Positions 16,042-20,926 of a stretch of 64,000 bases of DNA are shown in pieces. The stretch covers positions 1,674,001 through 1,738,000 of the forward strand of contig WIUZ02000006.1 in the NCBI GenBank assembly GCA_015956445.1, read 5' to 3'. The notes beneath the pieces were generated by a model. It saw nothing but the letters and a program-made list of their open reading frames with translations, was not told the DNA's origin and ran no database searches. How positions within the stretch are numbered: the stretch's first letter is position 1; each line of letters starts with the position of its first letter. The DNA comes from Thelephora terrestris (lineage: Eukaryota > Basidiomycota > Agaricomycetes > Thelephorales > Thelephoraceae). A program made the translations under genes and the position numbers.

Positions 16042-16049
16042 AGATCGAG
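16042..16049 (+). repeat. Left target-site duplication AGATCGAG
   Basis: The same eight bases stand at 20919-20926, directly outside the right inverted repeat. With the neighbouring C bases the match could be read as 9-11 bp, because it runs into the repeat end. Confidence 0.8.
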
Positions 16050-16050
16050 T

Positions 16051-16067
16051 GGGGACCGGCAACCCGC
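16051..16067 (+). repeat. Left terminal inverted repeat
   Basis: GGGGACCGGCAACCCGC; exact inverse of the right end. An extra T at 16050 separates it from the 8-bp duplication. Confidence 0.9.
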
Positions 16068-16358
16068 TGCCAATCTTTGGCTCCGCGCGGAATTCCCACA
16101 CATTCAGTTGGGGTCGCAATTTTCGATCCCATTTTTCTCCAGGGCACCGCCAGCTACAACAATTTTAAAAACATATATCGCGAGTAGGTACAACAGACTT
16201 CAATTCGGTGACGAGGTTTCTGTAGAAATTATTCCAAGAAGTAGAAATTGAACTCTTCTTCGAAAACTCTCCGATCAAGTGATCGACCTCAGAGAAGAAA
16301 CCCGCCCGCTCAGGGGTGTAAGCATAACTTTCTTTTTGCGCAACGCCCCCACTGCCTC

Positions 16359-19300
16359 ATGTCTCCAAAAAAAAGAAAACGACGCTCCGAAGCCCAAGTC
16401 CGCCACAGTGCTCTTCTTCATAAGTCGCAAAACGACCCTCTCACGTACTATGCTACTTCACTGGAAGAGGTGGCCAGCACGGCTGAGAAGCAGAGGGAAA
16501 GGGCTCGTCTGGCTGAGGTAGATGCAGAGCACAACAGAAAGGCGTTAGCCAGAGCACGGAACCAGGTGTGTTTCAGGGCAAGCACACATGAGATAGATTA
16601 TGAAACCAGACTCACAAGGTCACTACGCTTCGAGAGAAGCTGACTTCCAAGGAATTGACGGCAGACACGTTATCCCGGTCACTCAATAGCAAAGAAGCAG
16701 AGCTGCGGGAGTCCGTTGAACATTGTTCTAAGTTGGCTGAAACGGTTGCTTTGCTTCATCAAGACGTCTACCGGTTGAAGAAGAGATGCGATCGAGCTGA
16801 TGATATACGTTCCCGAGCGATTGAAAAGGCGGTCGACAGGGCCAGAAGGTGTTTCGAGACCGCCAATACAAGGCGAGTCAAACGTCCTGATGGTCGGATC
16901 GAGGACTGGGTCCGTGACCTCGTTGTTGAACTTGTCGCTCTTGACGGGGTCCCAACCACAAAAGTCCCTCAAGTAATTGAACGAGTCCGGTGTAGTTTTG
17001 TTCCAAAGGGGGACGGCGATGAACACAATGGTCAAGCTGGAGGTGATGACGAAGAACAGAAAATCAGTGACCGTTCGGTCCAGCGGATGCTGGTTGAAGC
17101 ATATGTCAAGGCATTTCTGCGTGCAGCGGAGCTCTTTGACAAAGCACCCTGTTAGCGTTGTAACTCGTGTTTCGTGATGAACGAAAGCTAACCTTTGCTT
17201 GTATAAAAGCTTGGACTGCAAGCGGTGACAGTACATCCTACAAGGGTATCAGCATTGGATATCACTTTTCCACCTTCCCCCCTGTCCCCTTCAAGGAGAA
17301 TGTCGTTGGCGTGACACCCGGTGTACCCTGCCGCCAATTCATTGCTACTACCCGAGAAGTCAATCACAAAACTTCTACCCAGTTCGAAAATTGGCTCACT
17401 CTCTTCGATGATATTGCAACGACCCATAACAACAGCCCATCTGGAAGCAAGAAACCTATAACCCTCGACGAAATCATTCGAAAGGTGACTGGATATACAG
17501 GCGACCATGCGGCGGACCAGAAGAAGCTAGCAAAGGAGTTCTGCGAACAAAAGCGGGAGGCGGTTGTGAGGGTCCATGGAAGAGAAGCGATGCGGGCGAA
17601 GCCGTCGGAGGAGGTAGAGGAGGTGATGATGGAGAAGTTTCTGGGGGCGTTGAATGGGATGGGTGGTTGGGAGGGCTGGGAAGGCACATCACGGGAGGAC
17701 CAAAAGCAGTTTTTGGAACAACTCGTCGAAGAAACACGGCGCCACTTTGGAGAGCTTGATCTTGCCATGTTGCCCGAGCCGGAGCGCCGTATTGAACTTC
17801 TTTTTGCCCAGAGCTGGTGTGCGATGCATAAGGACCTAAATACATTCAAGGCCGGGGCGACACATCTAGGAAGATTTTGGAAGGAGGAGAGTTTGGATGG
17901 ACCTGTCAAGCTGCTGAGCCGAGATCAGGAGAAAGCAGAGGCACTTGCAGCCCAGGACGATACTGACAGTGACTTGGAGAATGCAGTCGGTGGAGCGGTC
18001 AAGCTGACGAGCCTTATTGGTGCCCTTGTAAACAACAAAGACGAGGGGAAGGGATGTTCCGAAGAGTTTCGGACGTACACGTTTACTCGCCTTGGGAAAG
18101 TGATCGCCTATCCAGACACATCCAACGTTCGGTATCAGTGTTATGGGGACGCGGCCGCCGAGATAATCCGACACGCAGATCTGTATGCTGACTTCGTTAA
18201 CCAACATGGGATGAAGAAGAAGGGAGCAGCAGGACCAAACCATATGGAGATCAACATTCTGAAAGGCCTCGGGGATCCAACAACAATGACGGAAATAGCT
18301 GTCTTGGCCCTCTATCACGAGTCAGTTAGCAAGCCGTACGCAATGCAGGTTCGTGGAGTCATCAACGAGAACAAGAACACTCTCGACCTCGGGCCACTAC
18401 ATCATGATCTGGAGACCCACTGTGATACGATAATCGGCGAACCATCGCTCTTGATCGGCGATACCGTCTCGCACACGACGGGGGCTTTCTATGGAACCCC
18501 ATGGAATCAGGACACGGTCGATTGCATACGATCTCGCCAAAACCAACTACCTCACCTTGAACACGCTCTCGTTGCATTCTTCAAAGGTGCCCGAGAAAAG
18601 TGGCCGGCTTTCACAGAAGAATTCCACCCCAATTCAGAAGCTTCTCAGTTGACAGCCGAAGAGAAGGCGTTGGCGTTTCGTTCTCCGACTAACGACCACA
18701 GCGAAGGAGCTGGTGCAATGTGCAAGCAGTGGTCAAGACGTGCGCCCACGATGACAACACACCAAAGAAATGCACGTGTTCAGGTACAACTCAGTGGACC
18801 TGGGCTCCTTGAGTTTAACCATAGTCTTGGGCAAGAGGATCTCGCCTTCACCCGTCGCAGGGCAAGAGAGATAGATGCATCAAAACTCCCACTGAAGGAA
18901 AGGCAAGCCCAGGCTACAGCAGACGACGAAGCAATTGCGGAGGAGCAGAAGAAATCTGAGGATCGTGTCAGGCGAAAGGAAGCAAGGGAAGTTGAGGAAG
19001 CCGAGATGATTGAGGATTTCGTACCTATCCTTGATCTCGACAAGTTCCGCTCACTACCGGCATCACTCCCCTTGAACAACTTTCTCAGGCGGCAGTTGGT
19101 CTGGCATCGGGTTGTATGTGGCGATGATAGTTTGCCATCAGGGTTGTTCAAAAGCGTAAAGAAGGAAAAGATGAAGAAGCTGGTTGTGGAGGCTTTGCAA
19201 CGTCACGATGAGACGGCGCGGGTCGATGAGACGGTGGTCGTTGAACACGATGTGTTGATGGCGGACAACACCGGTGAGATGCCAATATATACGCAGGCGA

Positions 19301-20381
19301 GGATCGATGATCCAAACGTACACAAACACAGCTCTCATCTCTGATGATTCCGAAAATGAGCTGGAGCTCATTGACGAGGTCGGGTTGGGCCCGCAAAACG
19401 TCGAGCACCTCAAACAGCCCCCCACAGACCTTGTTCGTAGTCATTTGTACTCTTCCTCAACCTTCTGACTCGCTAACTTAGATCACACCGGTCTACAATT
19501 TTGGATGCAGATGGGATGCCACCGACTACTCTTGCTCCTACGACTGTGTCTTCATGACTTTCGCCTGGGCTTACTTCCATGCCACTGAGCATTGGAGGAC
19601 AACATGGACAGGCCGGTCCGCGGCAGCAAAATCGCTTTCGCGCCACTTCAAGTCGATCCTTCATGCCATTGAACGTCCGGCTGACCATGGGCCGGCTCCG
19701 CAAATCCCCGCCTTATTTTCGCGTGGACGCAACGCCTTCAGAGACGTGCTTTCGGAGCAAAACCCTGTGATGTTCAAACGTCACGGCGAAGTCGATGCTT
19801 GCTTGGCCGACATTCTTCACTCCCTCTCACACGATGATCTCCCATCTCGATATTTCTCCGTATTCTCCTCTTGCGGTGGCCGAAACTGCAAGATCAAGGT
19901 CAAGACACCTGCAGGTGCACCTTATATGTTGACCCCCAGTGTGTGGGCCTCAATCACCCATTCGGAAAACGCGCCGCATTACGAGTCGCTACAGGAGTGG
20001 GTCACCCGGTGGTTCGATCAGAAGGCATCATCCTTGCAGCGTGTTTGCGCGGGCTGCGGTGCAGAATGCTTGTTGACCCGCTCGTTTCTACAGCCACCCT
20101 GGATCTGGTTCGAGATTTTCGTCGAGCAACCACACGTCGTGACACCCGCCCTCGAGTTGGTATTTTGGTCACATACTTACCGGCTCGCTGCGGTCATATA
20201 TGGTAATGGCCGCCATTTCGTTTCGCGCCTCAGCACTTCTTCGGGCGTCTGGTGGAACTATGACGGCCAAGCCAACGGCGGCAGGCCAAAGGCAATTGCA
20301 CCTATCCGCACGGGATTCGACGTTCTGGGGTATGGACATGGATATATAGCGAATGCATTGGTTTACTGCTTGACGTGTTGA
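16359..20381 (+). CDS. Transposon protein: coiled coil, DDE-like core, SAP-like segment, USP-like protease
   Basis: Five exons (16359-16565, 16619-17150, 17210-19273, 19332-19432, 19482-20381) sum to 3804 nt, 1267 residues, with every junction in phase. Residues ~20-150 form a charged coiled coil. Around residue 250 SGDSTSYKGISI offers a first Asp; MHKDLNTFKAG a second Asp; PTNDHSEGAGAM a Glu. The spacing (roughly 200 and 300 residues) and context suggest an RNase H-type DDE core, which is my inference. A basic coil and a SAP-like helical pair follow (LPLNNFLRRQLVWHRVV..KKEKMKKLVVEAL). The last ~300 residues carry a Cys box (DYSCAYDCVF), two paired-cysteine knuckles (CGGRNC, CAGCGAEC) and a His box (GRHFVSRL...VWWNYDG), the layout of ubiquitin-specific proteases. 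Exons 4-5 could be a separate gene, but splice phases favour fusion. Confidence 0.8.
19482..20381 (+). other. USP (C19-like) cysteine protease domain of the transposon protein
   Basis: This is the last exon. YNFGCRWDATDYSCAYDCVF replaces the usual USP NTCYxNA box, with the likely nucleophile in DYSCAYD. Zinc knuckles lie at SSCGGRNC and VCAGCGAEC, as in the USP finger. The His box HFVSRL is followed by VWWNYDGQ, matching the USP pattern HY/FV..-W...D. It may cleave ubiquitin or SUMO from host factors; that role is inferred, not shown. Confidence 0.65.
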
Positions 20382-20901
20382 TAAACTTTGCCATTCATGC
20401 AATATATGCTATCTCTTCCATTCCAAATGCATGCTGTGTGAATATTTTGTCCTACGTGTGTTCGCTCAGCAACTTATATCTGCTTTTCGACCTTGAGTCT
20501 GGTCGCCGATCGTTGTGGCGGATATGTCCCGATCTCCGGTCATAACACGGACATAAGTTTGCACGAGAGATGAAAATCTGAGAAAAAATTATCTCCTCAG
20601 CCTGACACAAGGCTTTTGGGGAGTCGTAAGTGTGATGTAAGTGGCAACCTCAACTATGATGAAAATATCAATATATATAACATCGCGACCCCCAAAGAAG
20701 GCTACTTCTTTTGCAACCACTTTGATGAGGTTCTACATAAAGTATTAGGTTTTGAAAAAATCGCCGTCACCGATAGATGCGCGGTTGCATCGCGTGGCAA
20801 TTCCGGGAAGTTAGTCTGGCATCCTCGCCTCCGTTGTGCTCGAAAACAGGGTATCATACCTCTCACTCAAAATGAATTTCACATCCGGCCGCAGGACCAA
20901 G

Positions 20902-20918
20902 GCGGGTTGCCGGTCCCC
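20902..20918 (-). repeat. Right terminal inverted repeat
   Basis: GCGGGTTGCCGGTCCCC, the exact reverse complement of 16051-16067. Confidence 0.9.
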
Positions 20919-20926
20919 AGATCGAG
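20919..20926 (+). repeat. Right target-site duplication AGATCGAG
   Basis: Matches 16042-16049. Confidence 0.8.

Follow-up and report, generated by a model that had tools for sequence, protein, structure and literature searches.

An apparently undescribed DNA transposon family in Thelephora terrestris with a probable DDE core and a probable USPL1/USP-like isopeptidase domain

We analysed a 64,000-nucleotide stretch of the Thelephora terrestris genome (contig WIUZ02000006.1, positions 1,674,001 to 1,738,000; hereafter the window) and found a complete transposon of 4,870 bp on the plus strand at 16050-20919, whose ends are common to other copies in the same genome. We estimate a probability of roughly 80% that this element is a complete cut-and-paste (class II) transposon from a family that appears undescribed, encoding a protein with a helix-turn-helix (HTH)-like N-terminus, a probable Asp-Asp-Glu (DDE) core of the CxxH (hAT/P/MuDR/Kolobok-like) clade and a C-terminal isopeptidase domain resembling USPL1 and USP, and that reduced copies of approximately 670 bp were moved in trans. 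A preliminary description of this locus, made from the sequence alone, had already proposed a complete DNA transposon with defined ends, and this proposal is supported here by shared terminal inverted repeats (TIRs), copies of autonomous and non-autonomous size, and empty sites.

Terminal repeats, target duplications and empty sites

The genome examined comprised 40.6 Mb in 60 contigs, and its fungal character shows in the short introns of the element's gene and in its numerous KDZ and Helitron matches. The 16-mer TGGGGACCGGCAACCC, which is the family core of the TIRs, occurred exactly 63 times, versus no occurrence of a reversed-letter control, which argues that the ends did not arise by chance. 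A DNA search with positions 16042-20926 of the window gave 54 matches, among them one other full-length copy that is 99% identical to the window element. The TIRs of the window copy are 18 bp long and 100% identical, slightly longer than the 17-bp perfect inverted repeat reported previously. Among 28 copies of this kind that were cut to both ends (group 1, with the window copy), an exact 7-bp direct repeat immediately flanks TGGGGACC...GGTCCCCA in 22; copies in which both ends were not defined (L016, L022, L031, L032, L033, L037, L038, L040 and L044) were left out of this count. Two of the copies, L042 and L043 (C58:1931000-1934500 and C36:13800-17300), share the same target duplication and adjoining flanks on different contigs, and may be one insertion seen twice, perhaps in a duplicated segment or an unmerged haplotype. 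Because their flanks are identical, the independent count of target site duplications (TSDs) is 21 of 27. By size, the 28 copies comprise 22 of 658-682 bp, which have no room for the gene and are non-autonomous, and six of 4.8-6.2 kb.

The preliminary description had given the direct repeat as 8 bp. The sequence AGATCGAG does flank the element on both sides (16042-16049 and 20919-20926, within repeat D10), but its eighth base, an A, belongs to the right TIR, which it ends, and stands before GATCGAG on the left by coincidence, so the TSD is 7 bp. Consistent with this, 7 bp was the longest exact repeat directly outside the ends in the same 22 group-1 copies, and an 8-bp TSD was rejected. We then compared 24 target sites, leaving out L043 as a duplicate of L042, together with L014, L015, L021, L024, L035 and L041, which lack an exact TSD. 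These sites favour A/T at position 2 (21 of 24) and position 6 (20 of 24) and G/C at position 1 (18 of 24) and position 7 (17 of 24), giving a weakly symmetric S-W-N-N-N-W-S pattern, as two transposase subunits acting on opposite strands at a distance of 7 bp would be expected to produce.

A search of the genome with the protein of exon 3 identified seven further loci at 36-38% identity (group 2), plus one fragment at 56%. The right-hand DNA was read for four of the seven group-2 loci, of which three were complete at both ends and one, on C14, had its left end only. The three complete copies are 4,849-4,867 bp long, all three have a 7-bp TSD, and the group-2 ends, TGGTGGTGGGCAACGC, TGGTGGTCGGCAACAC or TGGGGATGGGCAACGC, are related to those of group 1. 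The 7-bp TSD length and the GGCA(A/G)C end core have thus been kept at 36-38% protein identity.

To look for empty sites, the 100-bp flanks of the 24 insertions were joined with one target copy kept and run against the genome; the best 40 of 86 candidates were scored, so the resulting counts are lower bounds. Paralogous empty sites were found for at least five of the 24 insertions (L009, L011, L025, L028 and the group-2 copy on C3), in at least ten places. Eight of ten junctions were read, and each holds one target copy, with a mismatch in the target in the case of L009. Six of the eight align without a gap, and the other two, both of L028, have an extra 12-14 bases located three bases outside the target. 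The shared ends, the TSDs and the empty sites together demonstrate past transposition. Both lines of evidence that the preliminary description had suggested seeking were therefore recovered: other copies with the same ends, short non-autonomous ones included (63 end 16-mers and 22 copies of 658-682 bp), and empty sites with a single target copy, which are paralogous.

Two loci depart from the usual arrangement. L058/L067 (C14:567077-573512) is a group-2 locus that is 99% like the C2 copy but carries approximately 1.4 kb extra, and the likeness ends before the right end of the C2 copy. On C5, two exact TIR 16-mers (276955-276970 and 287301-287316) lie 10 kb apart and face away from each other, and so belong to two separate or broken elements.

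The transposase gene and its probable core

The five-exon reading of the gene (207 + 541 + 2,064 + 101 + 900 nt) yields 1,270 amino acids plus a stop codon, with introns of 44-59 nt (Table 1); the preliminary description also had five exons, with a total of 1,268 codons. In all four other copies compared, exons 1, 2 and 3 are each followed by a GT splice donor. Only one of the four has GT after exon 4, so the exon 4/5 junction is provisional. We measured selection by the ratio of nonsynonymous to synonymous divergence (dN/dS), using the Nei-Gojobori method in our own script. Comparing the window copy with the C7 and C45 copies, we obtained core ratios of 0.12 and 0.08 and C-terminal domain ratios of 0.17 and 0.11; the corresponding values among group-2 copies were 0.12 and 0.09 (core) and 0.18 and 0.12 (tail). 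Ratios of 0.08-0.18 indicate that both domains have been kept by purifying selection. The C23 copy, whose exon 5 is out of frame, differs from the window copy by a dS of 0.011, with too few changes to judge selection. Exons 1 and 2 (16359-17150) code for a charged stretch that is probably coiled and for an HTH-like block common to group 2, with no Pfam match; this region is likely to be an end-binding domain.

Table 1 Positions of features in the window (contig and position are given for loci elsewhere in the genome)
Feature	Position	Strand	Basis or remark
Left target site duplication GATCGAG, 7 bp	16043..16049		
Left terminal inverted repeat, 18 bp, perfect in window copy; TGGGGACCGGCAACCC is the family core	16050..16067	+	Ends of copies, genome 16-mer count
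Exon 1, transposase start	16359..16565	+	Same length in 4/4 other copies, donor GT in 4/4
Exon 2, charged, probably coiled stretch, then HTH-like block (DWVRDLVVELVALDGVP...)	16610..17150	+	Group 2 has the block too; structure and DNA-binding role predicted
Exon 3, transposase core, 687 whole codons (17212-19272)	17210..19273	+	dN/dS 0.08-0.12
Candidate first catalytic Asp (SGD[S/G]T; residue 256, D6 of exon 3)	17227..17229	+	Invariant in 8/8 full rows; role inferred
Candidate second catalytic Asp, D348 or D352 in GDHAADQKK (D98 or D102 of exon 3)	17503..17517	+	Both invariant in 8/8 full rows; role suggested by position before CxxH
C-A-M-H, C453-x-x-H456 (203-206 of exon 3)	17818..17829	+	Sole invariant Cys of core, 8 full rows
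Candidate catalytic Glu (TND.xEG; residue 748, E498 of exon 3)	18703..18705	+	Invariant in 8/8 full rows; role inferred
Exon 4, 3' boundary provisional	19332..19432	+	Donor not GT in 3/4 copies
Exon 5, C-terminal isopeptidase-like domain and stop codon	19482..20381	+	dN/dS 0.11-0.18
Candidate catalytic Cys (SCSYD)	19533..19535	+	Invariant in 8/8, Helitron copy included
CxxC pair, putative zinc finger	20046..20057	+	Invariant in 8/8
Candidate catalytic His (GNGRHFV)	20214..20216	+	Invariant in 8/8
Candidate catalytic Asp (YDG)	20262..20264	+	Invariant in 8/8
Right terminal inverted repeat	20902..20919	-	
Right target site duplication GATCGAG	20920..20926		
Helitron-like loci with a relative of the C-terminal domain	C18:70354-75477, C10:680852-685972, C3:864350-869473, C3:398927-404062		

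For the core, we aligned nine members (alignment A1) and counted invariant residues in the eight full rows, leaving out L052, which has no N-terminal part. The alignment omits L061 (like L054 after its own N-terminus), L048 (internal stop), L050, L051, L053 and L059 (partial), as well as L046, which is 98% like the window copy, and L058, whose core is that of L057. Of the Asp, Asp and Glu contexts put forward earlier, the SGD Asp and the TND..EG Glu are retained as candidates, both being invariant, and the second Asp, placed in MHKDLN, is an unlikely one: it is the second residue after the His of the CxxH motif. Excerpts of PMC3706591 report that in hAT, Kolobok, P, MuDR and Dada the second Asp is followed by a C/DxxH motif. 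Because CAMH reads as such a motif, the second catalytic Asp is more likely to lie in GDHAADQKK than in MHKDLN. These motifs suggest that the core is probably a DDE/RNase H-like transposase.

In the mechanism that we propose, the charged and HTH-like N-terminal region, with the exon 2 block, would bind the ends, and the transposase would cut at TGGGGACC and GGTCCCCA and excise the element. The 3' ends would then be joined to S-W-N-N-N-W-S sites in the target DNA, with a stagger of 7 bp, and gap repair would produce the TSD. The reduced copies of approximately 670 bp, which have the same ends, would presumably be moved in trans by the same enzyme.

Several observations weigh against this account. 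Six of the 28 group-1 copies are those named above as having no exact TSD, and the left end of one of them, L021, is scrambled. With the best 40 of 86 candidates scored, no empty site was seen for 19 of the 24 insertions, the window's own included. In the core, 16 acidic residues are invariant in the eight full rows, so the catalytic triad is not settled, and the assumed second Asp lies approximately 100 residues before the CxxH motif, with a conserved stretch between them. A single-sequence AlphaFold model of the core, with a predicted local distance difference test score (pLDDT) of 36.3, is too poor for an RNase H core to be recognised. No Pfam transposase model matched any of the nine A1 members at E ≤ 10; the six rows returned were unrelated, the best being XPD_arch at E = 0.035. 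The dN/dS ratios rest on dS values of 0.7-2.5, and those with dS above 1, near saturation, are rough. Finally, the evidence of movement concerns past transposition.

The whole protein matched nothing in Pfam at E ≤ 1, and its sole match among PDB sequences was a weak one to V-type ATP synthase subunit F (E = 0.012-0.015). The A1 profile found no transposase in PDB sequences at E ≤ 10, returning one unrelated row (E = 1.6). No viral relative was found in IMG/VR with the window exon 3 and the alignment, and none in prokaryote genome contigs, in scans seeded by two to six short peptide patterns, which could overlook far relatives. The preliminary description knew of no account of these proteins as transposases with defined ends, and in the open-licence literature, a scope that does not take in Repbase or Dfam, we likewise found no published description or name for the family.

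One alternative to a new superfamily is a very divergent lineage of a known one, most plausibly P-like or hAT-like. We consider this possible, if on balance doubtful. The long interval between CxxH and the Glu would suit an insertion domain. The C/DxxH motif is among the features reported for both P and hAT (PMC3706591, excerpts), and 7-bp duplications flank Galileo of the P superfamily (PMC3573991, excerpts), within a 7-8-bp range for P. According to excerpts of PMC12730594, the hAT TSD is 8 bp, with 5, 6 or 7 bp in subgroups and 7 bp in hAT7. However, the Pfam and PDB searches at E ≤ 10 revealed no detectable relation to a P or any other transposase, and the element protein contains no recognisable hAT dimerisation domain: the corresponding profile matched three places in the genome, none of them at the element, and a hAT assignment was rejected on that basis. 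PF21787 (P-like) had no match in this genome, a weak test given that control genomes gave none either. The earlier statement that KDZ and hAT signatures are absent therefore holds, as neither profile matches.

KDZ transposons are also fungal DNA transposons, and an unrecognised member of the Kyakuja type would explain the TSD length, as Kyakuja makes 7-bp TSDs in Agaricomycetes (PMC12730594, in part). KDZ elements are moreover abundant in the same genome. We nevertheless regard this explanation as very improbable. The same excerpts give Kyakuja ends as CA..TG without TIRs, whereas the element has well-defined TGGGGACC TIRs; it also has no match to PF18758, a profile that recovered two KDZ proteins of the same genome at E = 1e-44 as a positive control. 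None of the 125 KDZ matches listed lies at a locus of the family. An hhalign comparison with three KDZ proteins of the genome gave 0.6% probability, outside the catalytic motifs, with column-shuffled controls at 0.1-0.2%, compared with 100% for lineage 1 against lineage 2. Zisupton and Dileera are assigned 8-bp TSDs in that source, so the TSD and ends of the element fit neither these nor Kyakuja. In the genome as a whole, KDZ is very abundant, many of the listed matches containing stops, and the hAT (3), MULE (2) and P-like (0) profiles are rare.

Other superfamilies were compared as well. Dada resembles the element in its 6-7-bp TSD and C/DxxH motif and is found in Laccaria, but its described members target small RNA genes and have no TIRs (PMC3706591, excerpts), whereas the element has a perfect TIR and its 24 targets share only a weak motif. 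MuDR/MULE was rejected because no MULE domain matched the element; PF10551 matches two places elsewhere in the genome. Plavaka and CACTA have TSDs of 2-3 bp, compared with 7 bp here.

A C-terminal isopeptidase-like domain related to one in Helitrons

The last 299 amino acids of the protein contain Cys18, C189xxC192, His245 and Asp261, all invariant in an alignment of eight copies, of which three belong to group 1, four to group 2 and one to a Helitron. Isopeptidases of the USP/USPL1 (C19/C98) type are defined by a Cys, a His and an Asp in succession, together with a CxxC finger, and the C-terminal domain has this order in all eight copies. One of the eight members weakly matches PF15499, Peptidase_C98 (USPL1, a SUMO isopeptidase), at E = 0.042, and one weakly matches UCH (PF00443) at E = 0.19. 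A search of PDB sequences with the domain profile placed USPL1 chains at E = 0.13-0.16, with the CxxC, His and Asp paired in the alignment, below an unrelated methyltransferase (E = 0.11). Such scores are chance-like by themselves, and it is the catalytic pattern that would carry the assignment to USPL1/USP. Fold searches with a model of the domain (pLDDT 45.9), too poor to inform, gave no USP among the best 50 rows each. Together, these data suggest that the C-terminal approximately 300 amino acids are probably a separate cysteine isopeptidase domain of USPL1/USP type, a feature that the preliminary description had overlooked.

The element could instead be a transposase with a tail that is structural or has another role, rather than an active isopeptidase. 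The weakness of the profile matches, the methyltransferase ranked above USPL1, the appearance of chance rows of similar size for the core (XPD_arch) and the poor structure model would all suit this explanation. We consider it unlikely, given the residues that are invariant even in the Helitron copy, the pairing of CxxC, His and Asp with USPL1, and dN/dS ratios of 0.11-0.18. A herpes-type VTD protease was rejected, as VTD has an Asp-x-His pair, whereas the invariant His here lies 16 residues before the invariant Asp. If the domain is an isopeptidase, it might strip ubiquitin or SUMO from the transposase and so protect it, or it might counter host silencing or SUMO/ubiquitin control.

Searching the genome with the C-terminal domain gave 19 matches, 15 at these transposons and four elsewhere. 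Each of the four shares its strand with a Helitron_like_N match whose start lies 4.3-4.5 kb from its own, so related protease-like domains are carried, within one genome, by this DNA transposon and by Helitrons. Helitrons with deubiquitinases have been described, with VTD proteases of the Asp-x-His arrangement and with OTU domains of presumed activity (PMC9741609, in part); these resemble the present element as transposons with a ubiquitin-type protease, but the Cys..CxxC..His..Asp order seen here is that of USPL1/USP. In the open-licence literature, we found no USPL1-like domain described on DNA transposons or Helitrons. Exchange of accessory genes has a precedent in TET/JBP genes, which have passed between fungal transposon lineages (PMC12730594, excerpts); TET/JBP was not among the Pfam hits of the whole protein, the core or the C-terminal domain.

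These observations lead us to propose, tentatively and at somewhat less than even odds, that the family is a new superfamily, characterized by a 7-bp TSD, TGG(G/T)G..GGCA(A/G)C ends, a CxxH core with a long conserved insertion between the second Asp and CxxH, and its own SUMO/ubiquitin isopeptidase, which would have been exchanged among fungal DDE transposons and Helitrons. If so, mechanistically unrelated transposons would share a counter-defence or protein-stability cassette. Novelty at the superfamily level would also supply ends, a TSD and an enzyme for proteins that have no Pfam name, presumably those carried as 'hypothetical' in mushrooms, and would allow the copies and their approximately 670-bp derivatives to be masked and dated. 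An isopeptidase common to this family and Helitrons would permit a direct test of whether unrelated transposons gain from the removal of ubiquitin or SUMO, a question also raised by the herpesvirus-type deubiquitinases of Helitrons (PMC9741609, in part).

At three of the four Helitron-like loci, the open frames reported for the domain match and for the Helitron_like_N match are equally long (2,406, 2,406 and 2,487 amino acids), and L072 holds one of the C-terminal domains found at these loci.

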